Positions 3,081 through 53,328 of a stretch of DNA of 64,000 nucleotides are shown here, in pieces. Location: positions 1-64,000 of the forward strand of contig NZ_FOFA01000001.1 in NCBI RefSeq assembly GCF_900110855.1, given 5' to 3'. Below the pieces are notes generated by a model that searched no databases, was not told the origin of the DNA, and saw nothing but the letters and a program-made list of their open reading frames with translations. The translations under genes and the position numbers were made by a program. The first letter of the stretch is position 1. The number at the start of each line of letters is the position of its first letter. This stretch comes from Microlunatus flavus. Its GTDB lineage: Bacteria; Actinomycetota; Actinomycetes; Propionibacteriales; Propionibacteriaceae.

Positions 3081-3116
3081 TACAGTTCGTCTCGCGCAGC
3101 GCTGCGTAGCGCTACG
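3081..3116 (+). promoter_or_regulatory. Putative promoter with two overlapping palindromes
   Basis: TACAGT (3081-3086) is a good -10 candidate. It is followed by two perfect 12-bp palindromes, CGCAGCGCTGCG (3095-3106) and CGTAGCGCTACG (3105-3116), with centres 10 bp apart, then a T5 run. The position at and just after the expected start point fits a repressor operator for the ATPase gene. A short hairpin attenuator is the alternative. Confidence 0.45.
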
Positions 3117-3172
3117 CGTTTTTCCACTACGGATCGTCGGGCACGTACCTGCCCGTGGAAAGGAAGTGTGGC

Positions 3173-4273
<1,101 letters not shown>

Positions 4274-40193: not shown

Positions 40194-40227
40194 CCCGGTG
40201 TTGACGACGTCCGACCCGTTCCGTAGG

Positions 40228-40270
40228 TTCGCGGTCAGGAGAAACTTCCTCTCCTGACCGCGAAACTTTC
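40228..40270. promoter_or_regulatory. LacI-type double operator of the GH5 operon
   Basis: GAAACTTCC (40241-40249) and GAAACTTTC (40262-40270) are exactly 21 bp apart. The first box sits in the loop of a perfect 14-bp inverted repeat (TTCGCGGTCAGGAG 40228-40241 / CTCCTGACCGCGAA 40251-40264). The patch is A/T-rich for this genome. The second box, in CGAAACTTTCTGA, is repeated as the same 13-mer at 52285-52298. GAAAnTTTC palindromes are typical LacI-family targets in actinobacterial polysaccharide genes. Confidence 0.75.
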
Positions 40271-40287
40271 TGACGAGGACGTCAACG

Positions 40288-41688
40288 ATGGCCAGCGCCA
40301 CGCCCCTGATCCGGACCTCCGGCTCGTCGTTCCTGGGACCGGACGGGGAGCCGCTGCTCCTGCGCGGGGTCTGTCTGGGCGGCTGGCTCAACATGGAGAA
40401 CTTCATCACCGGCTACGCGGCCAACGAGTCGCTGATGCGCGCCGAGGTCGCCAAGGTGCTCGGCGCCGAGCGGGCCGAGGCCTTCTTCGAGCGGCTGCTC
40501 ACCCGCTTCTTCGACGAGGCCGACGCGGCCTTCCTCGCCGAGTCGGGCTTCAACCTGGTGCGCATCGCCGTGGGCTACAAGCACCTCGAGGACGACGCGC
40601 GGCCCTTCGAGATCAAGCCCGACGGCTTCCGCCACCTCGACCGTGTGATCGAGCTGCTCGCGGCCCACGGCATCTACTCGATCGTCGACCTGCACGCCCT
40701 GCCCGGTTCGCAGAACCAGCACTGGCACTCCGACAACCCGACCCACGTCGCCGCCTTCTGGCAGCACCGCCACTTCCAGGACCGGGTCGTCAACATCTGG
40801 GAGGCCGTCGCGGAGCACTACCGCGGCAACGGATGGGTCGCGGGCTACAACCTCCTCAACGAGCCCTCCGACGAGACCGGTGCGGTCGTCGGCCCGTTCT
40901 ACGAGCGGCTCGTCGCCGCCATCCGCGCGGTCGACCCCGACCACGTGCTGTTCCTCGACGGGAACACGTACGCGACCGACTTCTCGATGTTCGACGAGCC
41001 GTTCCCCAACGCCGTCTGGACGCTGCACGACTACGTGCCCGCCGGCCTCGGCCGCAGCCCGCACTACAGCACCGAGGAGGCGGAGGCGAAGTTCCTCGAG
41101 CGCTCCGAGCACGCCCGGTCGCTGAGCTCGCCGATCCTCGTGGGCGAGTTCGGGCCGATCTACGGCGGCGACGAGGAGCACGACGCGTGGCTCCGCGGCA
41201 TCCTGCGCGACCAGCTCGACCTCTACAACCGCCACGCGGCCAGCTGGACTTTGTGGATGTACAAGGACATCGGCCGCCAGGGCCTCGTCTCGGTGAAGAA
41301 GGACACGCCGTACCGGCAGCGCTTCGACGCGTTCGTGGCCAAGAAGGAGCGCCTCGCCGTCGACCAGTGGGGCAGTGACGGCATCGGCCTCGCCGAGGTG
41401 ACCCAGCCGGTCCAGGACCTCGTCGCCGCCGAGTTCCCCGACTTCGACCCGTACCCCTGGGGTCGCTTCGACTGGGTGCGCACCCTGCTGCTGAACATCA
41501 CGCTGGCCCAGCCGATGGCCCACGAGTACGCGAGCCTGTTCCGCGGGCTCTCCGACGACGACCTGGACGCGCTGGCCGACTCCTTCGCCTTCGAGCACTG
41601 CGAGGTGCGCGCGCCGCTGCTGGCCGAGCTGCAGCGGGCCCAGGCCGCGGCCGACCCGCACGCCGCCCTGGAGAGGGAGGACGCCTGA
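40288..41688 (+). CDS. Glycoside hydrolase family 5 enzyme, intracellular
   Basis: A 466-residue (beta/alpha)8 glycosidase. The acid/base Glu lies in YNLLNEPSDE (Glu192) and the nucleophile Glu in LVGEFGPIYGG (Glu287), as in clan GH-A; GVCLGGWLNMENFI and HALPGSQNQ are GH5 features. No signal peptide is present, so it cleaves imported oligosaccharides. The C-terminal ~100 residues are not part of the barrel. ATG at 40288 has GAGGAC. It is the first gene of an operon with ADH and an aldonate-type dehydratase, directly behind paired LacI-type boxes. Substrate specificity (beta-glucan, mannan or xylan fragments) cannot be set. Confidence 0.88.
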   Translation: MASATPLIRTSGSSFLGPDGEPLLLRGVCLGGWLNMENFITGYAANESLMRAEVAKVLGAERAEAFFERLLTRFFDEADAAFLAESGFNLVRIAVGYKHLEDDARPFEIKPDGFRHLDRVIELLAAHGIYSIVDLHALPGSQNQHWHSDNPTHVAAFWQHRHFQDRVVNIWEAVAEHYRGNGWVAGYNLLNEPSDETGAVVGPFYERLVAAIRAVDPDHVLFLDGNTYATDFSMFDEPFPNAVWTLHDYVPAGLGRSPHYSTEEAEAKFLERSEHARSLSSPILVGEFGPIYGGDEEHDAWLRGILRDQLDLYNRHAASWTLWMYKDIGRQGLVSVKKDTPYRQRFDAFVAKKERLAVDQWGSDGIGLAEVTQPVQDLVAAEFPDFDPYPWGRFDWVRTLLLNITLAQPMAHEYASLFRGLSDDDLDALADSFAFEHCEVRAPLLAELQRAQAAADPHAALEREDA

Positions 41689-42788
41689 TGCGCGCCGCCG
41701 TGCTCCGCGAGACCGGGGCGCCCCTGACGATCGAGGACGTCGAGCTCGACGACCCGGGCCGCGGCGAGGTCCGGGTCCGCGTCGAGGCCGCCGGGGTGTG
41801 CCACAGCGACCTGCACTACGTTCTCGGCGACCTCCCGGCGAGGCTGCCGCTGGTCGTCGGCCACGAGGGTGCCGGCGTGGTCGAGGCAGTCGGTCCGCTC
41901 ACCACCGGCCGGGTGTCGGTCGGCGACCGCGTCGCCCTGCAGTGGCGGCCGCGCTGCGGCGAGTGCGACGCCTGCGTCGCCGGCAACCCGGTGCTCTGCC
42001 GCTACGGCCGCGTGCTCGCGACGACCAACGGCCTGATGGACGGCACCAGCCGCCTGCACGCCGGCGGCGAGACCCTGCACCACCTGATGGGCGTCTCCTG
42101 CTTCGCCGAGCAGGTGGTCGTCTCCGAGACCAGCGTGCTGGCCATCCCCGACGGGGTGCCCACCGAGGTCGCCGCCATCTCGGCCTGCGCCGTCATCACC
42201 GGCGTCGGCGCCGTGCTCAACGCGGTCGACGACGTGGCCGGACGGCCGCTGCTCGTCATCGGCACCGGCGGCGTCGGGGTGGCCGCGGTGATGGGGGCCT
42301 CCCTCGTCGGCGCCGGCCCGGTCATCGCCGTCGACGTCGACCCCGCGCGCCTCGAGCTGGCCCGCTCCGTCGGCGCGACGCACACCCTGGACGCCCGCGA
42401 GGGCGACGTCGTGGCGCGCGTGCTCGACCTCACCGGCGGGGTCGGCGTGCCCTGGGCCCTCGACGCCGTGGGCAGCCCTGACACCATGCGGCAGGCGGTC
42501 GACGCGCTCGCGCCCGGCGGCACCCTGGTCGCGGTCGGCCTGAACCGTCCCGACGCCACCGTCGCCGTGGGCATCAACGACCTCGTGCAGCGCCAGAAGC
42601 GTGTCGTCGGCGCGCTCTACGGCGCCAGCAACCCGCGCCTCGACCTGCCGCGGCTCTTCGGCCTGTACGCCTCCGGGCGCCTGCCGATCGACCGGCTGGT
42701 CGGCGCGCGGCGCCCGCTCAGCGAGGTGAACGAGGCCCTGGCGGGCCTCCGCGGGGGCAGCGCCGGCCGGACGATACTCGTGCCATGA
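41688..42788 (+). CDS. Zinc-dependent alcohol/polyol dehydrogenase
   Basis: A 366-residue medium-chain dehydrogenase. Catalytic zinc ligands are in GVCHSDLHY (Cys38) and VGHEGAG (His60), with the structural-zinc cluster CGECDACVAGNPVLC (residues 90-104). The Rossmann motif is GTGGVGVAA (about 192). NAD is the probable cofactor (VIAVDVDPARLEL has Asp after the second strand). Start and GH5 stop overlap (TGATG), and its stop overlaps the next gene by 4 bp, so the three genes are translationally coupled. Its role is presumably oxidation of a sugar or sugar alcohol from the GH5 product. Confidence 0.9.
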   Translation: MRAAVLRETGAPLTIEDVELDDPGRGEVRVRVEAAGVCHSDLHYVLGDLPARLPLVVGHEGAGVVEAVGPLTTGRVSVGDRVALQWRPRCGECDACVAGNPVLCRYGRVLATTNGLMDGTSRLHAGGETLHHLMGVSCFAEQVVVSETSVLAIPDGVPTEVAAISACAVITGVGAVLNAVDDVAGRPLLVIGTGGVGVAAVMGASLVGAGPVIAVDVDPARLELARSVGATHTLDAREGDVVARVLDLTGGVGVPWALDAVGSPDTMRQAVDALAPGGTLVAVGLNRPDATVAVGINDLVQRQKRVVGALYGASNPRLDLPRLFGLYASGRLPIDRLVGARRPLSEVNEALAGLRGGSAGRTILVP

Positions 42789-44542
42789 ACGACGTCGACA
42801 AGCACAGCCGGCAGGACCCCGACCACCAGCCCCTCCGCAGCGACGCCTGGTACGCCGGCGACGACCGCAACGCCTACCTGCACCGCGCCTGGATGCGGCG
42901 CGGGGTGCCGTCGAACGCGTTCGAGGGCCGCCCGCAGATCGCCATCGCCAACACCGCCTCCGACCTCACTCCCTGCAACGCCCACCTCAACGAGGTCTCC
43001 CGCGCGGTGCAGCAGGGCGTGTATGAGGCCGGCGGCATCCCGCTCGACCTGCCGGTGGTCTCCCTCGGGGAGACGCTGGTCCGCCCGACCGCGATGCTGT
43101 GGCGCAACATGGCCGCGATGGCCATGGAGGAGATGTTCCGGGCCAACCCCATCGACGGCCTGGTGCTGCTCGGCGGCTGCGACAAGACCATCCCGTCGCT
43201 GCTCATGGCCGCGGCCAGCGTCGACCTGCCCGCCGTCGTCGTCCCCGGCGGGCCGATGCTCAACGGGACGTTCCGGGGGCAGACCCTGGGCTGCGGCACC
43301 GACGTCTGGCGCCTGGGCGAGGAGGTCCGTGCGGGCACGCTGAGCGCTGAGCAGTTCGTGCGCTCGGAGTCGTCGATGATCCGCAGCCGCGGCCACTGCA
43401 ACACCATGGGCACCGCGTCGAGCATGGCCGTGGTGGCCGAGGCGCTGGGCATGACCATCCCGGGCATGGCCGGGACCCCGGCGCCCGACAGCCGGCTGCT
43501 CGAGGGCTCCCACGAGGTCGGCCGCCTGGCCGTCGAGCTGGTCCGCGAGGGCCGCACGATCAAGCAGGTGATCACGCGGGAGTCGTTCCACAACGCGATC
43601 GTCGCGCTGGCCGCGGTCGGCGGCTCGACCAACGCGGTCGTGCACCTGATGGCCATCGCCGGCCGCCTCGGGATCGACCTCGACCTCGGCGACTTCGACC
43701 GCATCGGCGCCGGCGTGCCGCTGCTGGTGAACCTGCAGCCGGCTGGTGAGTTCCTCATGGAGGACCTCTACCGCGCGGGCGGGCTGCTGGCGGTGCTGCA
43801 CCAGGTCGCCGACCTGCTCGACCCCGGCGCGATCACGGTGACCGGCGAGACCCTCGTGGAGGCCGCCTCCCGGGAGCACCCGGTCTGGGACACGACCGTC
43901 ATCACGCCGCGCGAGACCCCGCTGCAGGCCGACGCGGGCATCGCGGTGCTGCGCGGCAACCTGGCCCCGCACGGCGCCATCGTCAAGCCCGCCGCGGCGA
44001 GCAAGGAGCTGCTCACCCACCGCGGGCCTGCGCTGGTCTTCGACTCCGTCGAGGACCTCAAGGCCCGCATCGACGACCCGGACCTGCCCGTCACCCCGGA
44101 CTCGGTCCTGGTGCTGCGCGGCTGCGGTCCCCGCGGCTACCCGGGCATGCCCGAGGTCGCCAACCTGCCCCTGCCGAAGAAGATGCTGCAGCTCGGCGTC
44201 CGCGACATGGTCCGCGTGTGCGACGGCCGGATGAGCGGGACCGCGTACGGCACGGTCGTGCTGCACGTCGCCCCGGAGGCGGCGGCCGGCGGCACGCTTG
44301 CGCTGGTGCAGGACGGCGACACGATCGTGCTCGACGTGCCCAACCGGCTGCTGCAGCTCGACGTCAGCGACGAGGAGCTGGCCGCGCGCACGCCGCCGGC
44401 GTCCCTGGTCCAGCACTTCGCCGCCCCGACGCGCGGCTGGGAGAAGCTCTACGTCGAGCACGTGCGCCAGGCGGACACCGGTGCTGACCTCGACTTCCTG
44501 GTCGGCAGCACCGGCCCCGAGGTCGCGCGCGAGTCGCACTGA
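42785..44542 (+). CDS. IlvD/Edd-family aldonate dehydratase
   Basis: A 585-residue iron-sulfur dehydratase. Cluster cysteines fall in LTPCNAH (Cys64), GGCDKTIP (Cys132) and GHCNTMGTAS (Cys205). The opening LRSDAWYAGDDRNAYLHRAWMRRGVP is typical of the pentonate/hexonate (xylonate, arabinonate) dehydratase branch, not of branched-chain amino acid IlvD. The reaction would be aldonate to 2-keto-3-deoxyaldonate. Its ATG overlaps the ADH stop (ATGA). It is the last gene of the plus-strand operon and is followed by a strong terminator. The enzyme for the next step (aldolase, or dehydratase plus dehydrogenase) is not in the window. Confidence 0.9.
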   Translation: MNDVDKHSRQDPDHQPLRSDAWYAGDDRNAYLHRAWMRRGVPSNAFEGRPQIAIANTASDLTPCNAHLNEVSRAVQQGVYEAGGIPLDLPVVSLGETLVRPTAMLWRNMAAMAMEEMFRANPIDGLVLLGGCDKTIPSLLMAAASVDLPAVVVPGGPMLNGTFRGQTLGCGTDVWRLGEEVRAGTLSAEQFVRSESSMIRSRGHCNTMGTASSMAVVAEALGMTIPGMAGTPAPDSRLLEGSHEVGRLAVELVREGRTIKQVITRESFHNAIVALAAVGGSTNAVVHLMAIAGRLGIDLDLGDFDRIGAGVPLLVNLQPAGEFLMEDLYRAGGLLAVLHQVADLLDPGAITVTGETLVEAASREHPVWDTTVITPRETPLQADAGIAVLRGNLAPHGAIVKPAAASKELLTHRGPALVFDSVEDLKARIDDPDLPVTPDSVLVLRGCGPRGYPGMPEVANLPLPKKMLQLGVRDMVRVCDGRMSGTAYGTVVLHVAPEAAAGGTLALVQDGDTIVLDVPNRLLQLDVSDEELAARTPPASLVQHFAAPTRGWEKLYVEHVRQADTGADLDFLVGSTGPEVARESH

Positions 44543-44547
44543 GCCGA

Positions 44548-44582
44548 CGACCCCTGGGCCCCGTCCGCGGGCCCAGGGGTCG
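44548..44582. terminator. Bidirectional terminator between the two sugar operons
   Basis: CGACCCCTGGGCCC (44548-44561) and GGGCCCAGGGGTCG (44569-44582) pair perfectly over 14 bp with a 7-nt loop, between convergent operons. Confidence 0.88.
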
Positions 44583-44609
44583 GTCCGACCGGCTCCCGCC
44601 AGCGGAAGG

Positions 44610-45479
44610 TCAGCCGGCGTACGCGTGCGGCACGGCGCCGCGGATCCCGGCGTCGTGGGTGAAGACCGCGCCGGCCTCGGGCTGCTCGCCGTCGGGCACG
44701 CCCTGGCGCGAGGTCGTGATGAACAGCGTCGAGAGGTCGGGCCCGCCGAACGTGCAGGCGGTGACCTGCGTGACGGGCAGCTCGACCACGCGGTCCAGAC
44801 GGCCGTCGGCGGTCCAGCGGCGGACCTGGCCGCCGCCCCACAGGGCCACCCAGACCCCGTCCCCCTCGTCGATCGCCATCCCGTCGGGCAGCCCGGGACC
44901 GTCGACCTCGGCGAACGTGCGCCCGTCGGACCAGGCGCCCGTCGCGGGATCCACGGCGAAGCGCTGCACCTTCGCCGTGGGCGTGTCGACGTAGAGGGCG
45001 GAGCGGCCGTCGCAGGTCCACTGCACGCCGTTGGAGATCGTGGCGCCGGTGCGGACGACCGACACCCGGCCGTCCGGGTCGAGCCGGTAGAGGGTGCCGC
45101 GCCCGGGCGTCTCGTCGTAGGCCATGGTGCCGACCAGGAAGGCCCCGAGCGGGTCGCAGCCGCCGTCGTTGAAGCGGAGCGTCGGGTCGGCGAAGACGGG
45201 CGGCAGCTCGCGCTCGACCGCGAGGTCGTCGTCGAGGAGCAGGAAGCGGTCCTCCGTCGCCAGCACGAACCCGCCGCTCCGACGTGCCCGCAGCGCGGCG
45301 GCCACCGACGCGAGGTGGTGGCGCTCGACGCTCGCCCCGCCCACGTCGTCCGGGCGTACGGCCAGCACGTCGCCGGCGAGCATGTCGACAAGCAGGAGCC
45401 GGTCGCGCGGCGCGTCCCAGGAGGGACCCTCGCCGTGGCTCGTGCAGGGCTCTGTGAGCTGCTCGGCCCGCACGGTCAC
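44610..45479 (-). CDS. SMP-30/gluconolactonase-family lactonase
   Basis: A 289-residue six-bladed beta-propeller that opens sugar lactones. Metal-binding residues are recognisable: Glu17 in SHGEGPSWD, Asn in RFNDGGCDPLG, Asn in TISNGVQW and Asp in GLPDGMAIDEG. GTG at 45479 overlaps the SDR stop by 4 bp. It is the last gene of the nine-gene minus-strand block. Functionally it links the sugar dehydrogenases (SDR or AKR) to the aldonate dehydratase encoded convergently. Confidence 0.92.
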   Translation of the reverse strand: MTVRAEQLTEPCTSHGEGPSWDAPRDRLLLVDMLAGDVLAVRPDDVGGASVERHHLASVAAALRARRSGGFVLATEDRFLLLDDDLAVERELPPVFADPTLRFNDGGCDPLGAFLVGTMAYDETPGRGTLYRLDPDGRVSVVRTGATISNGVQWTCDGRSALYVDTPTAKVQRFAVDPATGAWSDGRTFAEVDGPGLPDGMAIDEGDGVWVALWGGGQVRRWTADGRLDRVVELPVTQVTACTFGGPDLSTLFITTSRQGVPDGEQPEAGAVFTHDAGIRGAVPHAYAG

Positions 45480-46279
45480 ATCCAGCCCCCGTCGACGACC
45501 CACTTCTGCGCGGTGCAGCGGCGTGAGTCGTCGGCCGCGAGCCAGAGCACCATGCGCGCGACGTCGTCGGGGTAGAGCTTGTCGGGCAGGCACTGGTTGC
45601 GCTCGATCGAGGCCTCGGCCTCCGGCGTCACCCGCTCGGCCAGCTGCTTCTCGGTCATGATCCAGCCCGGGATGATGCAGTTCACGCGGACGTGCCAGGG
45701 TCCGTACTCACGGGCCAGCGTGCGGGTCAGGCCCTCCACGCCGGCCTTGGCGGTGATGTAGCCGGGCAGGTCCATCAGGTCGATGTGCACGCTGATCGAG
45801 CCGAGGTTGATGATCGACCCGCCACCCGCGTCGCGCATCATCGGCGCCACCGCCTGCGCGGCGAAGAAGTGGTGGCGCACGTTGACCGCGATGCGCTCGT
45901 CCCACAGCGCGACGTCCATGTCGGGCACCCGGTCGCGGTGGTCGTTCGCGGCGTTGTTCACGAGGACCCGGACCGGCCCGAGCTCGTCGGCCGCGGTCGC
46001 GATCGCCGCCTGCAGCGCCGGGACGTCGCGCACGTCGCAGACGGCGAAGCGCACCTGCGCGCCCTCGTCGCGCAGCCGCTGCTCGAGCGCGCGACCGCGC
46101 TCGGCGTCGACGTCGACGAAGAAGACGCGCGCGCCCTGCCCGGCGAGCTCGACGACGAACTCCGCCCCCAGGCCGGACGCTCCCCCGCTGACGAAGGAGG
46201 TACGCCCGCGCAGGCTCGGGTAGGAGGCGTAGACCGGCTCCGACTCGGGCACGGCCACTTCCGCGCCAGCCGCGCTCAT
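45476..46279 (-). CDS. SDR-family sugar dehydrogenase (probable)
   Basis: A 267-residue classical short-chain dehydrogenase. The cofactor loop is VSGGASGLG (a TGxxxGxG variant) with Asp at the end of the second strand (FFVDVDAE), favouring NAD. NNAAND is the NNAG-like motif, and the catalytic site is GSISVHIDLMDLPGYITAK (Ser, Tyr, Lys). ATG at 46279 overlaps the AKR stop (ATGA). The product with the SMP-30 lactonase suggests aldose 1-dehydrogenase activity, but the sugar is not defined. Confidence 0.88.
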   Translation of the reverse strand: MSAAGAEVAVPESEPVYASYPSLRGRTSFVSGGASGLGAEFVVELAGQGARVFFVDVDAERGRALEQRLRDEGAQVRFAVCDVRDVPALQAAIATAADELGPVRVLVNNAANDHRDRVPDMDVALWDERIAVNVRHHFFAAQAVAPMMRDAGGGSIINLGSISVHIDLMDLPGYITAKAGVEGLTRTLAREYGPWHVRVNCIIPGWIMTEKQLAERVTPEAEASIERNQCLPDKLYPDDVARMVLWLAADDSRRCTAQKWVVDGGWM

Positions 46280-47238
46280 CCCAGCCATCCGGCGGGGTCG
46301 GGCACCAGCCGCTCCAGCTCGTCCCACACGTCGTCCGGCACCTCGACGGCCGCCAGCTCCAGGGTCTGCGCCACCCGCTCGGGCGAGCTGACCCCGATCA
46401 CGGTCGAGTGGACGCTCGGCAGCCGCAGCGAGAACTGCAGCGCCGCCGCCGCGAGCGGCACCCCGGCCCGCGTGCACACGTCCCCCATCCGCCGCGCCGC
46501 GTCCGCGACCTCGTCGCCCCGCGTGCCGTAGGCGTACTTCGGCTGGGCCTCCGGGCCCTTGGACAGCATGCCGCCACCGTACGGCGCGGCGTTCAGCACG
46601 CCGATGCCACGCTCCGCGGCCTCCGCGAACAGCGGCAGCACCGAGCGGTCGAGCAGGGTCGCCCGGTTGTGGCTCAGCACCACCTCGAACTCTCCGGTCC
46701 CGAGGTAGTCGCGCAGCACACCGACGGGTCCGCCGGCCACGCCGAGGTGGTCGACCAGACCGCGCTCGCGCAGCTCGACCAGGGCCGGGACGGCCCCGCC
46801 GGGCTTGATGGCGTCGGCGAACTCCATGCGCTCGGGGTCGTGCAGGTGCAGCAGCGGCACCCGGTCGACGCCGAGGCGTTCGAGCGACTCCTCCAGGGAG
46901 CGGCGCACCCGCTCGCCGGAGAAGTCGCCGGTGCGCTTGTCCGGGTCGACCTTCGTGCTGAGGACGAGGCCCGGGGGCAGCCCGCCGGCCTCACGGACGG
47001 CGATGCCGATGCGCCGCTCCGCGCTGCCGTCCTCGCCGTAGCCGTTCGAGGTGTCCAGCAGCGTCACCGGGCTGTCGAAGACCGCCCGCACGGTCGCGAC
47101 GGCCCGCTCCTCCGCCACGGCGTAGCCGTAGAGGTTGCTCATGCTCGCGAGCGGGCTGGTGCCGAAGGCGACCGGGGTGACCTGCAGCCCGGTCGACCCG
47201 AGCGCCCGGGGGGTGCTGGCGGTGCTCGTCGGGTTCAC
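46276..47238 (-). CDS. Aldo/keto reductase, D-threo-aldose/L-fucose dehydrogenase-like
   Basis: A 320-residue aldo/keto reductase of the branch that contains D-threo-aldose 1-dehydrogenase. The tetrad is Asp in LLDTSNGYG with Tyr of the same motif, Lys in LSTKVDPDKRTGDFS, and His in LLHLHDPERM. GVLNAAPYGGGMLSKGP is a branch-specific motif. GTG at 47238 overlaps the epimerase stop. With the SDR it gives the operon two candidate sugar 1-dehydrogenases; they may act on different monomers of the imported glycan. Confidence 0.88.
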   Translation of the reverse strand: MNPTSTASTPRALGSTGLQVTPVAFGTSPLASMSNLYGYAVAEERAVATVRAVFDSPVTLLDTSNGYGEDGSAERRIGIAVREAGGLPPGLVLSTKVDPDKRTGDFSGERVRRSLEESLERLGVDRVPLLHLHDPERMEFADAIKPGGAVPALVELRERGLVDHLGVAGGPVGVLRDYLGTGEFEVVLSHNRATLLDRSVLPLFAEAAERGIGVLNAAPYGGGMLSKGPEAQPKYAYGTRGDEVADAARRMGDVCTRAGVPLAAAALQFSLRLPSVHSTVIGVSSPERVAQTLELAAVEVPDDVWDELERLVPDPAGWLG

Positions 47239-48296
47239 CGCGCACCCGCCTGCGGCGCGCGCTCGGCGAAGGCGGCGCGACCGGCGTGGTAGGCCCCGAC
47301 GATCCGGTCGAGCACCTCCTCGGTGGCCGTGTCCGGCCCGGTGGTCTCCGGGTGGTCCGCGCGCCAGCGGACCATCCGGTGCACGGCGCGGGCGAACGTG
47401 AGCCGCGGCGCGTACGAGGGCACCAGCCGGCGGACCTTGGTCGTGTCGAAGACGGCGCTGTGCCCGATGTCGCCCAGCACCTCGCCCGACCAGAACCAGT
47501 CCGGCGCGACGACGGGGTAGAGCTCGGAGGCCACGTGCACCAGCCGCGGCTCGACGCCCAGCGCCTCACCGACGAGGGTGTGGATCAGGTCCCAGGTCAG
47601 GACGTCGTGGCCGGTGATGTTGACGACCTCGCCGACCGCGTGCGGGCCGATCAGGCCGACCAGTCCCTGCGCGAAGTCCTCCGCGTGGGTCAGCGTCCAC
47701 AGCGACGTGCCGTCGCCGTGGACGGGGACCTCGACGCCGCGCGCGATGCGGTCGACGACCGTCCAGCCGCCGGCGAGCGGCGGGTTCGCGTCGTCGTAGG
47801 TGTGCGAGGGGCGCACGATCGTGACCGGGAAGCCCTGCTCGGCCCGGGCCTGCTGGAGCGCGACCTCGGCGCCCCACTTCGCCGTCGCGTACGGCAGCAC
47901 GGGGTTGGGCCCGGCCGGCGTCGACTCGGTGATGGGAGTGGTCCAGACCGGCTTGGAGTAGACCGAGCCCGAGCTGATGTGGACGTACTGCCGGGTGCGC
48001 CCGCCGCCGAAGATCCGCACCATCCGCGCGACGTCGGCGGCGTCGTACGACACGAAGTTGACCACCGCGTCGAAGGTGCGGTCGCCGAGGGCGGCGAGCA
48101 GCGAGTCGTCGTCGCTCGCGTCACCGACGAGCCGGGTGACGCCCTCGGGCAGGTCGCGGCCCGCGCTGTTGTTGCCGCGGTTCAGGACGAAGACGTCCAG
48201 GCCGGCCTCGGCCGACAGGCGCACGCACGAGGTGCTGATCGTGCCGGTGCCGCCGAGGTAGAGCACGCGGAGCGCCGCGCTGTCGTGTCGCATCAT
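47235..48296 (-). CDS. NAD-dependent epimerase/dehydratase (extended SDR)
   Basis: A 353-residue extended short-chain dehydrogenase. The nucleotide-binding loop is LGGTGTIS, HISSGSVYS has the catalytic Ser, and the YATAKWGAE region holds the YxxxK. The C-terminal half resembles nucleotide-sugar epimerases, but the GGTGTIS loop is seen in catabolic homologues acting on free sugars or sugar acids. Tandem ATGs at 48296 and 48293 are both possible. It overlaps the AKR gene by 4 bp. Confidence 0.85.
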   Translation of the reverse strand: MMRHDSAALRVLYLGGTGTISTSCVRLSAEAGLDVFVLNRGNNSAGRDLPEGVTRLVGDASDDDSLLAALGDRTFDAVVNFVSYDAADVARMVRIFGGGRTRQYVHISSGSVYSKPVWTTPITESTPAGPNPVLPYATAKWGAEVALQQARAEQGFPVTIVRPSHTYDDANPPLAGGWTVVDRIARGVEVPVHGDGTSLWTLTHAEDFAQGLVGLIGPHAVGEVVNITGHDVLTWDLIHTLVGEALGVEPRLVHVASELYPVVAPDWFWSGEVLGDIGHSAVFDTTKVRRLVPSYAPRLTFARAVHRMVRWRADHPETTGPDTATEEVLDRIVGAYHAGRAAFAERAPQAGAR

Positions 48297-48372
48297 CTGG
48301 GGTTCGGGTCCTTGGGGTGGGAGCGTCGCGCCGGGGTGGCGGCGCGGGGGTCGTGGCGCGTGGACGGCCCGG

Positions 48373-48728
48373 TCAGGAGCCGGCGTACCAGTCCTCGAAG
48401 CCGTTCTCGGTGACGGCGATCAGGATGTCCTCACGCCGGACGCCGGCCTCGGCGAAGCGCTCGGCCACGGCCTCAAGAAGCGCCGCTTGGTTGCCACGGG
48501 GTACATGTGGACCATCGTCACGCGGACGAGGACGAGCTGCTGGCGGTCGACCCCGCCGAAGGTGCGGTCGAAGCGCAGCTCGCCCTTGGGCCGGGGGGTG
48601 AAGACCTGGAACAGGTCGTCGCCGGGGATGTCGAGCGCGGCGAGCTGGGCCGCGTGCACGGCGTCGCTCAGCTGGTCGCCGGCCCGCTCGTAGAGCTCGG
48701 CGTCGAGGTCGATCTGGATCAGCGGCAC
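48373..48728 (-). pseudogene. Tautomerase-family gene with a -1 frameshift
   Basis: The first ~80 codons from the GTG at 48728 encode a tautomerase-type subunit (PLIQIDLDAELYERAGDQL, with Pro as residue 2, the catalytic N-terminal proline after Met removal). After MYPVATK the frame runs into unrelated Arg/Pro-rich sequence and stops at 48420. In the other frame the expected C-terminus continues (ALLEAVAERFAEAGVRREDI, then ITENGF-like and EDWYAGS) to a stop at 48373. One missing base near 48485 explains this; the repaired protein would have 118 residues. GAGGAGG precedes the start. It may be a true mutation or a sequencing error. Confidence 0.82.
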
Positions 48729-48834
48729 GGGTGCCTCCTCATCGGTCGGCTCCCCGGGCGGACGGTCCGCCGCGGGTCGGTCGTGGAGCGGCTCGGGGGG
48801 CGCGGGGAGGAGCGGGGCGTGCGGTCGGCCCGGC

Positions 48835-49623
48835 TCACTTCAGGGCGCCGGCGGCGAGACCGCGCTCGAAGAGCCGCTGCAGGCAGAGGTACGCGACGAC
48901 CTCGGGGATCGCGGTCAGCACGGCCGAGGCGAGGATCTTGGTCTGGTCGTTGCTGAACTGGCCGACGAAGAACTGCGGGACCAGGGTGATCGTCTGCATC
49001 TCGGGCGACTGCAGGAAGACCAGCGGCATCAGGTAGTTGTTCCAGGCCCCGATCAGGGTGAAGATCAGGATCGCCGCGGCGATCGGGCGCGTCAGCGGGA
49101 TGACGAGGTGGACGAAACCGCGCACCGCGCTCGCGCCGTCCACCCGGGCCGCCTCGAACAGCTCGTCCGGGATGCCGTTGACGAAGTTGCGCGTCAGCAG
49201 CACGGCGAAGGGGACCTGGAGCGCGGCGAGCGGCAGGATCACCGCCCAGTAGGTGTCGAAGAAGCCGAACGCCTGCGCCGTGGTGAACAGCGGGGCGAGC
49301 AGCACGACCTCGGGCAGGGTGAGGCAGGCCAGCAGCAGCCAGAAGTAGACCTCGCGGCCGCGGATGTGCAGCTTGGAGAAGCCGTACGCGGCCAGCATCG
49401 TCACCGCGTAGACGATGACGATCACCGCCGCCGCGATCACCACGGTGTTGACGAAGAAGCGCCACAGGCCGGGCACGGCCAGCACGGCGGCGTAGTTGCC
49501 CCAGCCGTCGCCGGCCAGCGAGCCCTGCACCATCGCCACCAGCGGGAACAGGAAGGGCAGCACGAGCAGGGTCACCACGAGCTGCAGCAGCAGCCGTGCC
49601 CCGCGGCTCCGGACCTCGAACAT
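48835..49623 (-). CDS. Sugar ABC transporter permease, MalG type
   Basis: A 262-residue membrane permease of carbohydrate uptake transporters. Six helices are visible. The cytoplasmic EAA loop, which docks the ATPase, reads NGIPDELFEAARVDGASAVRGFVHLVIPL (about residues 150-178). ATG at 49623 overlaps the stop of the other permease by one base (TGATG). It is slightly shorter at the N-terminus than the usual 270-290 residues. Confidence 0.92.
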   Translation of the reverse strand: MFEVRSRGARLLLQLVVTLLVLPFLFPLVAMVQGSLAGDGWGNYAAVLAVPGLWRFFVNTVVIAAAVIVIVYAVTMLAAYGFSKLHIRGREVYFWLLLACLTLPEVVLLAPLFTTAQAFGFFDTYWAVILPLAALQVPFAVLLTRNFVNGIPDELFEAARVDGASAVRGFVHLVIPLTRPIAAAILIFTLIGAWNNYLMPLVFLQSPEMQTITLVPQFFVGQFSNDQTKILASAVLTAIPEVVAYLCLQRLFERGLAAGALK

Positions 49624-50567
49624 CAGCCCGTCGTCTCCTTCTCCCGGCTGCGGACCTGCAGGAGGATCGCGAAGCCCAGCGCCAGGACGAGCAGGATCAC
49701 CGACAGCGCGGCGCCGTAGCCGACGTGCGACTGCGCGATGGTCTTGCGGTAGATGTACGTGCCGAGGAACTCGGTCGCGTAGTTCGGACCGCCGACGGCG
49801 ACCAGGTAGGGCACGTCGAACGTCTTCAGCGCGCCGATGGCGCTGAGGATGCCGAGCGCGACGGTCGTCCCGCGCACGCCGGGCCAGATGATGCTGGCCA
49901 GGACCCGCAGGTTGCCGGCGCCGTCGATCCGGGCGGCCTCGAGGACCGACACGTCGATCTGCGCCATCGCCGCGAAGTAGAGGACGAAGGTCAGGCCGGT
50001 CCACTGCCAGATGGTGATGGCCATGATCACGGGCAGCGCCGTGCTCTCCTGACCCAGCCAGGGCTGGGCCAGCGACCCGAGCCCGATGTGCTCCAGCACC
50101 CAGTTGAACTGGCCGTCCGGCGCGTACAGGCGGCGGAAGACCGGTGCGGTGATCGCCGGCGCGAGGACCACCGGGATGAAGATGATCACCTTGTACACGA
50201 CGGCGAGGCGCACCTTCGAGTGCAGCAGGACGGCGAAGACGACCCCGAGCGCCGTCTGCACGACGAAGGTCACGACGAAGAACACCGCCGTGTGCTCGAT
50301 GGTCTTCGCAAAGATCGGGTCCTGCGCGATCCGCACGTAGTTCCCGGCCCCGACGTGCTCGGGGAAGGGGTCGAGCCCGTCCCAGTCCCACGTCGAGATC
50401 ACCGCCGTGTAGGCGATGCAGTAGTAGATCAGCCCCACGCACAGCACCAGCGCCGGGAGGATCCACAGGTAGCCGGCGGGCCGGAGCCGGCGGCGGGTGC
50501 CGGGACCCACCTCGGTCCCGGCCGCCCCTGCCCCCAGCCGCTGCCGCTCGGCCGTCGTTCCGCTCAC
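49623..50567 (-). CDS. Sugar ABC transporter permease, MalF/UgpA type
   Basis: A 314-residue permease partner. It has a polar cytoplasmic N-terminus, six membrane helices and the EAA loop QIDVSVLEAARIDGAGNLRVLASIIWPG (about residues 205-232). GTG at 50567 has GGGGGAG. It forms the channel heterodimer with the downstream MalG-type permease. No ATPase gene accompanies them. Confidence 0.92.
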   Translation of the reverse strand: MSGTTAERQRLGAGAAGTEVGPGTRRRLRPAGYLWILPALVLCVGLIYYCIAYTAVISTWDWDGLDPFPEHVGAGNYVRIAQDPIFAKTIEHTAVFFVVTFVVQTALGVVFAVLLHSKVRLAVVYKVIIFIPVVLAPAITAPVFRRLYAPDGQFNWVLEHIGLGSLAQPWLGQESTALPVIMAITIWQWTGLTFVLYFAAMAQIDVSVLEAARIDGAGNLRVLASIIWPGVRGTTVALGILSAIGALKTFDVPYLVAVGGPNYATEFLGTYIYRKTIAQSHVGYGAALSVILLVLALGFAILLQVRSREKETTG

Positions 50568-50611
50568 CGCTGCTCCCCCGTCGGGTCGACCTGGTCGGAC
50601 GTCGTCGGCGC

Positions 50612-52042
50612 TCAGCGCGCCGCCTGGGCCGCCTTCTGCAGCGTGTCGGCGGCCTCCTGCGGCGTGGCCTTCCCGGTCGCCGTCGACGTCGCGGCCGCGA
50701 GGATCGCGTCCTGGACGTCGGTGGTGAGCAGGGCGAAGCGCGGCTCGGTGACCGTCCCGACCTGGCTGAGCAGCTGCTTGACCGGCGCCGCCTGGGTGGC
50801 CGGGTCGACGAAGGTGATCTTGTCGAAGTCCGGCTCGACGCCCTTGAGGGCGGGCACGTCGTTCAGCTGGTCGGCCACGGCCTGCTGGCCGGCCTTGGAC
50901 GTCGCGAGCCAGGTCACGAACGTCTCCGCGGCCGCGCGGTCCTTGGCCTTGGTCGAGACCGACAGCCCGTAGTCGGCGTCACCGAACATCTCGCTGGTGT
51001 TGCCGGCCTGGGCCACGTCGGGGAACTGCATCGGCAGGATCGGGAACGGCTTCGCCCCGGAGACGCCAGCAGCCTTGAGGGCTGCGGTCATCGCCTTCTC
51101 GGTCGAGTACTGGGTGTACCAGGTGCCCATCTGCACCATCGCGTACTTGCCCGTGAGGAAGTCGTTGTTGGCGTCGGGGTACTGCTGGTAGCCGACCGCG
51201 CCGGGCTGCATGATGCCGCGGCTGAAGAGCTGGTGCCAGATGTCGAGGGTCTTGACGATCGCCGGGTCGTTCCACGGCACCTCGCCGTTCGACGCCTTGG
51301 TCCACACGCCCGGGGAGACCGAGTTCGCGATCGCCTGGAGGGTGTCCTGGTCGAAGCCCTCGCCGGCCGCGCCCTGGACGAAGCAGCCCTGGTCGTGCGA
51401 CTTGAAGGTCTGGCAGACCTTCTCCCACTCGTCGAGCGTCTTCGGCGGCTGCAGGCCGTACTTGTCGAACAGGGCCGGGTTGTACCAGACGGTGCCGGAG
51501 TAGACCGCGCCCACGGAGGCGGCGACGAGCTTGCCGTCGGCCGACAGCCCGCTCACGCCGGCCGGGGCCACCTTGGACTGCCAGTCGTCGCCCAGCGCCT
51601 TCTGCATGACCGGGGTCAGGTCCTCGGCGAAGGACTTGTAGTTCTTCACGTACGCACCCGGCTGCATGTCGAACACGTCGGGCCCGGCGTCGGAGCGCAG
51701 GGCCGGCGGCAGCGCGGCCTGCCAGTCGGAGATCGCGACCAGCTTGAAGTTCACCTTGATGTCGGGGAACTCGGCGTTGAACGCCGCGATGTAGCCCTGC
51801 GCGGTGTCCACGTCGGTGGGCGTCCAGCCCCACCAGTTGACGGTGCCGGAGGTCGCCGAGCCGGCGTCGGACTGCTGCGCGGACTTGGCACCACCGCCCA
51901 CCGGGGAGCAGGCGGCCAGCGGCAGGAGCGCGGCGACGGCGGCCACGGCGACGGCGCGCAGCGCGGTGCGAGCACGACGCCCGCCGGGGCCGTGGGAGCG
52001 CGAGCCGGTCGTGGGACGGGCGAGACGGGTCGTGAGCTGCAT
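50612..52042 (-). CDS. Sugar ABC transporter substrate-binding lipoprotein
   Basis: A 476-residue extracellular binding protein of family 1 (MalE/UgpB-like). An Arg-rich start and hydrophobic stretch lead to lipobox LPLAAC (Cys near residue 46), so it is lipid-anchored. The mature protein has the usual features VNWWGW, FNAEFPDIKVNFK, FDMQPGAYV and GTWYTQYS. ATG at 52042 has AAGGGGA. It is the first transporter gene after lacI. Aromatic residues in the cleft suit an oligosaccharide ligand, but identity is not determined. Confidence 0.92.
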   Translation of the reverse strand: MQLTTRLARPTTGSRSHGPGGRRARTALRAVAVAAVAALLPLAACSPVGGGAKSAQQSDAGSATSGTVNWWGWTPTDVDTAQGYIAAFNAEFPDIKVNFKLVAISDWQAALPPALRSDAGPDVFDMQPGAYVKNYKSFAEDLTPVMQKALGDDWQSKVAPAGVSGLSADGKLVAASVGAVYSGTVWYNPALFDKYGLQPPKTLDEWEKVCQTFKSHDQGCFVQGAAGEGFDQDTLQAIANSVSPGVWTKASNGEVPWNDPAIVKTLDIWHQLFSRGIMQPGAVGYQQYPDANNDFLTGKYAMVQMGTWYTQYSTEKAMTAALKAAGVSGAKPFPILPMQFPDVAQAGNTSEMFGDADYGLSVSTKAKDRAAAETFVTWLATSKAGQQAVADQLNDVPALKGVEPDFDKITFVDPATQAAPVKQLLSQVGTVTEPRFALLTTDVQDAILAAATSTATGKATPQEAADTLQKAAQAAR

Positions 52043-52245
52043 GACGGTGATCCCCTTCGATCGACCGGGAGCCGGGAGCGTCCTCGGACGGGGGGCCCGG
52101 GACGAGCCGGAGGACCGGTCGGCACGCCTGGTCGCACCAGCCCGTGTCGAACCTGCCGGCGCGGGAAGCCCCGCAGGGGGCCGGACCTCGTCGGCGTCGT
52201 CCTCCGCGGGGTTGCGCTCGAGCAACCCGCCGCGTGACGGCGACG
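52043..52245 (-). other. lacI-transporter intergenic region
   Basis: A 203-bp gap with no ORF of its own. The A/T-rich operator pair lies just upstream, inside the lacI coding end, so the transporter promoter is probably located at 52200-52300 with a long leader. No clear -10 or terminator stands out. Confidence 0.4.
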
Positions 52246-53328
52246 CTACTTGCGCACTCCGGAGGCGTCAAGTTTCTTCGTGATTTCAGAAAGTTTCGTA
52301 GAACCGGGTGGAGCGGTGCTGTCGCGGACGATGAGCGTCGTCGCCATGTCGATGCGGCTCGCCCCGGAGGCGGTGCCCGCGCGCGGTTCCAGCACCAGCT
52401 CGACGGCCTCGGCCGCCATGTCGGCGATCGGCACCCGGACGGTGGTGAGCGCAGGGCCCGCCCACTGCGCCACCTTCACGTCGTCGAAGCCGACCACCGA
52501 GAGCTGGCCCGGGACGGACACCCCCAGGGCCCGGGCGGCCTCGTACACCCCGAGCGCGTGCACGTCGGAGGACGCGAAGACCGCGGTCGGCGGGTGCGCG
52601 AGGGTGAGGAGCGCCCGCCCCTGCTCGATGCCGTCGGCGTGGTGGAAGCCGCCGTGGCGGAGATGCTCGGGCCGCAGCTCCAGGCCCGCCGACTCGAGCG
52701 CGGCGCGGAAGCCCGACAGGCGCGCGGTGGCGGCCATCATGTCCTCGGGCCCGGTGATGATCGCGATCTCGCGGTGCCCGAGCCCGACCAGGTGCCGGGT
52801 CGCGGCGTACGCCCCGCTCCAGTCGGCCGAGCCGATCGTCGGCACCTCAGGAGGGACGTCGCCGGTCGGCCCGAGCACGACGAAGGGGATGTTCCGCGAG
52901 CGGAGCTGCTGCATCTGCTCGCCGGTCAGGTTCGTGGAGACGAGCACCGCGCCCACGGGGCGCCGGTTCAGCACCCCGTCGATCCAGCCGGGGTCGGGCT
53001 TGTCGCGGTCGTTGGTGCCGGAGACCACGACGCCGACGCCGCGCCGGCGCGCGACCCGCTCGATCGACGCGAGCGCCTCGCTCGCCCAGGAGCTGTCGAT
53101 CTCGAAGCAGAGGACCTCGATGAGCGGCGCGTGGTTGGGTCCGGGGTTGCGCGGGTTGTAGCTGTGGTCGGAGAGCAGCGCCTCGATCTTGGCCCTGGTG
53201 TCCTCCGAGACGCCGGCCCGGCCGTTGAGCACCTTGGAGACGGTGGAGACGGAGACGCCGGCGCGCTCCGCGACCTCGGCGAGCGTGGCTCGGGTGGTCG
53301 TCACGCCTCCGGCCGGGTCGGCGGGCAT
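52246..53328 (-). CDS. LacI-family sugar repressor
   Basis: A 360-residue regulator. The helix-turn-helix and hinge read TLAEVAERAGVSVSTVSKVLNGRAGVSEDTRAKI (about residues 12-45), then a periplasmic-binding-like effector domain (VVSGTNDRDKPDPGWIDGVLNRRPVGAVLV). The C-terminal codons (TKLSEITKKLDASGVRK) double as the GAAACTT operator pair. ATG at 53328 is chosen: TACGCT ends 7 nt upstream, the leaderless arrangement, and there is no Shine-Dalgarno sequence. GTG at 53304 is the alternative. It probably represses both sugar operons until the inducing sugar is present. Confidence 0.93.
   Translation of the reverse strand: MPADPAGGVTTTRATLAEVAERAGVSVSTVSKVLNGRAGVSEDTRAKIEALLSDHSYNPRNPGPNHAPLIEVLCFEIDSSWASEALASIERVARRRGVGVVVSGTNDRDKPDPGWIDGVLNRRPVGAVLVSTNLTGEQMQQLRSRNIPFVVLGPTGDVPPEVPTIGSADWSGAYAATRHLVGLGHREIAIITGPEDMMAATARLSGFRAALESAGLELRPEHLRHGGFHHADGIEQGRALLTLAHPPTAVFASSDVHALGVYEAARALGVSVPGQLSVVGFDDVKVAQWAGPALTTVRVPIADMAAEAVELVLEPRAGTASGASRIDMATTLIVRDSTAPPGSTKLSEITKKLDASGVRK
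52268..52297. promoter_or_regulatory. LacI-type double operator inside the lacI 3' end
   Basis: TCAAGTTTC (52268-52276) and GAAAGTTTC (52289-52297) are 21 bp apart, the same spacing as the pair before the GH5 operon. The second box lies in a 13-mer (CGAAACTTTCTGA on the minus strand) identical to 40261-40273. The site is ~230 bp upstream of the binding-protein start codon. Confidence 0.75.

Follow-up and report, generated by a model that had tools for sequence, protein, structure and literature searches.

Paired strong and weak boxes before two operons of a GH5 sugar locus in Microlunatus flavus as likely operators of a LacI-family regulator

The 64,000-nucleotide stretch of Microlunatus flavus DNA analyzed here (the window; positions 1-64000 of contig G000:C16, from a genome of 4.79 Mb) carries a sugar locus made of two convergent operons, a GH5 operon on the plus strand and a transporter operon on the minus strand. 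Each operon has two boxes 21 bp apart, of which one is exactly GAAACTTTC and the other imperfect. Pairs of this kind recur in related bacteria, together with the group of LacI-family regulators that holds the locus's own LacI, encoded at 52246-53328. We consider it likely, from the sequence evidence, that the two pairs are operators of this protein. The complete reading, in which the protein would bind both pairs as side-by-side dimers and repress both operons until a sugar binds, we put at a probability of roughly 0.7.

Two box pairs at the ends of the locus

The boxes and the regulator gene are given below, the score of a box being the number of matches to GAAANTTTC over 8 positions of the nine-mer.

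40241..40249, plus strand: weak box of the GH5 operon, GAAACTTCC, 7/8
40262..40270, plus strand: strong box of the GH5 operon, GAAACTTTC, 8/8, with the weak box 21 bp away
52268..52276, minus strand: weak box of the transporter operon, GAAACTTGA (plus strand TCAAGTTTC), 6/8, overlapping a putative -35
52289..52297, minus strand: strong box of the transporter operon, GAAACTTTC (plus strand GAAAGTTTC), 8/8, within the last lacI codons
52246..53328, minus strand: LacI-family regulator, predicted ligand of the boxes

The original prediction had placed boxes at 40241, 40262, 52268, and 52289, in two pairs of identical 21-bp spacing that share the 13-mer CGAAACTTTCTGA, with a LacI gene at one end. 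The positions and the spacing are right, the 13-mer is exactly common to both pairs once the second is read on the minus strand, and lacI is next to the transporter operon. The pairs themselves stand, but one box of each is imperfect (7/8 and 6/8).

Twenty-two nine-mers of the window match GAAANTTTC at 6/8 or better, and boxes of at least this score come within 60 bp of each other only twice, both times at 21 bp. An exact box with a partner of at least 6/8 at 20 to 22 bp arose in none of 200 simulated windows (first-order Markov). Taken singly, boxes with at most one mismatch are no more frequent in the window than chance allows (3 versus 1.10 expected; 11 of 100 shuffles reach 3). Across the genome, exact GAAASTTTC occurs at 6 places and its backwards control at 0, and the pattern GAAASTT-N10..18-GAAASTT occurs at 2 places, both at this locus (control 0); with one mismatch and any centre allowed, 69 places are found versus 21 for the backwards control. 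The window simulation and the genome-wide pair count together rule out chance as the origin of the pairs, and the genome scan bears out the earlier view that the boxes are not scattered at random.

All 6 exact genomic sites have sugar-uptake or glycosidase genes downstream. Of the four outside the locus, one is found between lacI and binding-protein genes, one between GH3 and binding-protein genes, and one between GH10 xylanase and lacI genes; the fourth precedes a binding protein with XylF as its best NCBIfam match, at 201 bits and so short of the cut-off of 389.55. None of these four has a partner above 4/8 at 20 to 22 bp; the core is therefore common to several sugar loci, and the pairing is special to this one. 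The flanks also differ: the sites at the GH10, GH3, and XylF-like genes are single and flanked by CGAAACTTTCGG, whereas those in the window are paired and followed by TGA. At L007 (G000:C13:371386 and 371574), a GH10 gene and a lacI gene have between them two exact GAAANTTTC boxes with a spacing of 188 bp.

The core has been described before. Passages of PMC4743123 give CGAAACTTTCG as the binding site of BxlR, a xylobiose-responsive LacI-type repressor, and passages of PMC12772271 report CGAANNTTTCG before xylanase genes. Because the box is the core of the BxlR site as given there, the motif itself is not new. The full 11-mer was not found: both strong boxes carry GAAACTTTC, but the last G of CGAAACTTTCG is a T in the window. 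Compared with what these passages say of Streptomyces BxlR, the locus is alike in its LacI-family regulator, its GAAACTTTC core, and its position beside sugar ABC transporter and glycosidase genes; it is unlike in the base after the core and in its gene set, GH5 with oxidative sugar-acid enzymes rather than a GH3 xylosidase, the comparison covering sites and genes. The sites in the window form pairs at 20 to 22 bp, and since the BxlR passages are silent on pairing, this last contrast is tentative. The link that the original prediction drew between GAAAnTTTC and xylanase-type genes agrees with passages of both papers and with the GH10 and XylF-like (below cut-off) sites of this genome; as expected of a BxlR-type operator, exact boxes here do have GH10, GH3, and XylF-like neighbors.

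The boxes might accordingly answer to another BxlR-like LacI, such as the one beside the GH10 xylanase gene, which would place the locus in a xylan regulon. We regard this as quite improbable, given that the xylan-type sites are single with their own flanks and that two relatives of the genus, G010 and G011, retain lacI at the locus, even though the same core is present at the GH10, GH3, and XylF-like loci and the regulators have a TVSKVLN helix in common.

Recurrence of the pairing in related loci

The GH5 protein was scanned against the genome contigs of 84,980 species, which gave 271 relatives; the best 80 of these and 4 loci from the genus formed a set of 84 loci at 83 places (L122 and L126 duplicate a single one), in which the regions before the lacI, GH5, and substrate-binding protein (SBP) genes were scanned. 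Exact GAAANTTTC occurs in 61 of the 84 loci and the control motif CTTTNAAAG in 1. Thirty loci have a pair of a box with at most one mismatch and a box with at most two at 20 bp, 15 have one at 21 bp, and 3 at 22 bp, the peak lying at 20 and 21 bp; the control motif gave no pair at any distance. Further distances represented by several loci were 9 (11 loci), 10 (10), 46 (9), 54 (6), and 32 bp (5, including Sinomonas and Humibacter). When partner similarity was averaged in 21 genus-level classes of 80 loci, it stood 5.0 standard deviations (sd) above background at 20 bp and 5.1 sd at 21 bp. A second box about two turns away is thus present in related GH5/LacI loci above the control, as a helically phased pair would have it, a recurrence that the original prediction had left to a scan of relatives.

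In 36 Streptosporangiaceae promoters, picked by the match of at least 6/8 itself, the poorer box reads GAAAn..TC without exception and its centre varies; the spacing is 20 bp in 28 and 21 bp in 8. Mean information in the same promoters is 1.87 bits for the better box, 1.62 for the poorer, 1.14-1.15 for the spacer, and 0.19 downstream. The Streptosporangiaceae loci are related, so locus counts are not independent events.

Closer to the window, GH5 is present at 65% identity or more in 4 of 20 genus genomes (G000, which is that of the window, G010, G011, and G002). G010 keeps the gene order of the locus. Before its GH5 gene, AGAGAAACTTTCTCT is the strong box and GAAACCTGT (5/8, by eye) lies 21 bp on, so that the strong and weak roles at GH5 are reversed relative to the window; before its SBP gene, GAAACTTTC is followed by GAAACTTGA 22 bp on. 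G011 shows the 21-bp spacing at each of the two promoters, its boxes scoring 6-7/8. The lacI-to-SBP end of the locus occurs twice on the G010 contig (L122 and L126), one copy being frameshifted, which looks like an unclosed circular assembly. In another genus genome, at L167 (G004:C2:486252-486279), GAAACTTTC stands beside a GH3 gene with GCAACTTTC 21 bp away, so pairing may not be confined to GH5 loci.

A tree was built of 68 LacI proteins from 83 candidate rows of related GH5 clusters, the remaining 15 having no match at 40% identity or more over more than 800 bp. With a paired locus defined as one having a box of at least 7/8 and a partner of at least 6/8 at 20 to 22 bp, 42 rows were paired and 26 single. 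Pairing was found in 41 of the 45 members of the group that holds the window's LacI (support 98/92), including all 36 of one Streptosporangiaceae group within it; the four without a pair come from Pseudonocardia (one) and Sinomonas (three). In the second large group 1 row of 20 is paired, and elsewhere 0 of 3. The fewest changes of pairing on the tree number 4, whereas shuffles need 21.1 and none of 500 reached so low a count; near-copies inflate such clustering, and the tree is rooted only at its midpoint. With its recurrence in related bacteria, the pairing is probably an expression of the way in which their LacI-type repressor binds.

This segregation of pairing with LacI groups, the spacing peak at 20-21 bp over 21 classes, and outer halves that are invariant in 36 of 36 selected promoters while the spacing varies all argue against an account that we hold to be unlikely, in which only the strong box would be an operator and the weak copies would be chance or promoter sequence. 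In favor of that account, the weak transporter box overlaps the putative -35 TTGACG and shares its last letters with it, as also seen in Humibacter, so that it may owe part of its match to the promoter; the four other exact genomic sites, if functional, work without a partner; and the second GH5 box of G010 reaches only 5/8. The first of these observations also weighs against the reading that we favor, and several others join it. Three Sinomonas loci have a spacing of 32 bp instead. Further peaks of partner similarity stand at 46 (4.1 sd), 9 (4.2), and 10 bp (3.8); they come from shared descent or self-similarity, and those at 9 and 10 adjoin the box itself. G002 has the GH5 homologue and no box before it. 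No box of at least 6/8 was found in the stretch scanned before the lacI start, on which ground lacI autoregulation was rejected. Of 391 genomes of the order, 1 has a pair of two exact boxes, spaced 40 bp apart, and the control likewise occurs in 1 genome; the exact-exact pair was rejected as a genome-wide signature because its frequency equals that of the control. To be added are the differing helix of one box-associated LacI described below, the selection and relatedness of the Streptosporangiaceae rows, and the 15 rows missing from the tree.

A more general proposal, which we advance only tentatively, is that this LacI group may have fixed a non-looping strong-plus-weak pair at 20 to 22 bp as its binding rule across several actinobacterial families, the pair being kept while its promoter position (downstream of the -10 or over the -35) and the strong and weak roles (window versus G010) change. 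The operator core is known, and the strong-plus-weak pairing would be the variant part. If the proposal is true, the pair is a natural case for testing side-by-side cooperativity without looping in the LacI family, the rule of a strong and a weak box 20-22 bp apart separates the targets of one LacI group from those of paralogues with the same core, and both halves of an oxidative sugar-catabolic locus form one regulon. A literature search, whose coverage leaves out most subscription journals, returned, among the matches listed, nothing that presents a strong-plus-weak pair at 20-22 bp as characteristic of a LacI group; in a search with the motif letters, no description of paired boxes was recognized among the matches listed.

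The regulator, the promoters, and the proposed mode of action

The protein at 52246-53328 belongs to the LacI/GalR family by its LacI helix-turn-helix and its periplasmic-binding-like core, with 57.0 bits for PF00356 (cut-off 27) and 123.3 bits for PF13377 (cut-off 26.5). Its recognition helix is GVSVSTVSKVLNGR. The LacI proteins beside the GH10 and GH3 sites have VSLATVSKVLN and VSVATVSKVLN, thus sharing TVSKVLN with it, and those of related GH5 clusters have mostly TVSKV[LI]NGR. The LacI at the C7 site has the helix VGLGTVSRVFSN, so helix and box do not correspond strictly. Around a fourth TVSKVLN protein of the genome, the 3.1-kb neighborhood contains no box. Of the 32 LacI genes in the genome, the loci of 30 were examined, and 4 of them have a box with at most one mismatch nearby.

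Three further features surround the boxes:

40201..40229, plus strand: putative GH5-operon promoter TTGACG-17-TAGGTT, found by eye, both hexamers also in G010
52243..52271, minus strand: putative transporter-operon promoter TTGACG-17-TAGCGT, found by eye, both hexamers also in G010
40228..40264, no strand assigned: inverted repeat around the weak GH5 box, 15 bp perfect with a 7-base loop

A consensus promoter scan called neither promoter, so both are putative. The GH5 pair lies directly downstream of its putative promoter. At the transporter operon, the final codons of the lacI open reading frame (ORF; 52246-53328, minus strand) span the second pair in full together with the -35, and the putative -10 includes the lacI stop codon TAG. 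The original prediction had this pair upstream of the transporter genes, which is right in that it lies 226-255 bp before the SBP start at 52042, but it is inside the 3' end of lacI. The lacI frame through the operator pair and the -35 (52246-52302) adds the tail GSTKLSEITKKLDASGVRK, with G/C at 10 of 18 third positions versus 0.94 in the whole lacI ORF. In G010 and G011 lacI ends before the boxes and the tail is absent from both proteins, so the tail is a by-product in the lineage of the window.

The inverted repeat at 40228-40264 folds as DNA at -20.3 kcal/mol (z -6.84); the matching place in G010 is only a quasi-palindrome with a weaker fold (-9.1, z -3.22). The repeat may have arisen by a hairpin-templated change that damaged the weak GH5 box as well. 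It was rejected as a typA terminator, no terminator being called and no T run being present.

On the reading that we favor, the LacI protein would repress the GH5 and transporter operons until the inducing sugar is bound. A dimer on the strong box would bring a second dimer to the weak box about two helical turns away, next to it along one face of the DNA, and stabilize it; such cooperativity between adjacent dimers is plausible. In the GH5 operon, where the pair lies just downstream of the putative -10, binding would block initiation or escape, and in the transporter operon, where the pair lies at and upstream of the putative -35, it would exclude RNA polymerase.

In E. coli, LacI and GalR use several operators in helical phase that are farther apart and are joined by a loop. 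The window resembles them in its LacI-family protein, in having more than one operator, and in helical phasing, but boxes 20 to 22 bp apart fit side-by-side dimers. Phage lambda CI offers another precedent, adjacent-dimer cooperativity on operators about two turns apart in which a strong site helps a weak one; the neighboring strong and weak boxes here are similar, whereas the protein is unrelated, and a comparable contact between LacI dimers would have to be supposed.

A tetramer on each 21-bp pair, one of the possibilities in the original prediction, is unlikely, since lac-type loops are longer and the C-terminal tail consists of operator codons absent in G010 and G011. The two pairs also stand at the outer ends of the convergent operons, where a LacI tetramer could join them in a loop of about 12 kb closing the whole locus. 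By phmmer, the window's protein can be matched to E. coli LacI only as far as residue 335-336, which does not take in the tetramer helix of the latter. The tail is unlikely to serve as a tetramer helix because it is operator DNA in frame, with the third positions and the absence from both relatives noted above. We find the loop scarcely credible.

Genes of the locus and the likely substrate

The other genes of the locus are:

40288..41688, plus strand: GH5 glycoside hydrolase
41688..42788, plus strand: zinc-binding dehydrogenase
42785..44542, plus strand: IlvD/Edd-type sugar-acid dehydratase
44610..45593, minus strand: SMP-30/gluconolactonase-like protein
45476..46477, minus strand: short-chain dehydrogenase (SDR), with the domain in the C-terminal part; the true start is probably lower
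46276..47238, minus strand: aldo-keto reductase
47235..48296, minus strand: NAD-dependent epimerase/dehydratase-like protein
48835..49623, minus strand: second ABC permease, named from position and look, without a Pfam run
49623..50567, minus strand: ABC sugar permease
50612..52042, minus strand: SBP, first gene of the transporter operon

From the far end inward, the minus-strand order is lacI, SBP, two permeases, the epimerase-like gene, aldo-keto reductase, SDR, and the SMP-30-like lactonase.

A pentose substrate, hinted at in the original prediction, is suggested by some enzyme resemblances, and others point to different sugars. The nearest PDB entry to the GH5 protein is 9ku5, a 'putative beta-xylosidase GE32' (E 3.2e-91), the SDR scores 306.6 bits for the NCBIfam D-xylose 1-dehydrogenase (below the cut-off of 400), and the dehydratase scores 750.3 for L-arabinonate dehydratase (below the cut-off of 882). 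Counting against a pentose, the SDR also resembles sulfoquinovose 1-dehydrogenase, and the aldo-keto reductase resembles L-galactose dehydrogenase. Literature searches on GE32 and on GH5/xylosidase/LacI gave no relevant paper among the matches listed.

A 102-aa ORF lies on the minus strand at 48420-48728, between the second permease and the epimerase-like gene. Elsewhere in the window, an msiK RNA (RF01747, 61.4 bits) lies on the plus strand at 3111-3169, at the start of an ORF at 3155-4273, and may mark a shared ATPase for sugar transporters.

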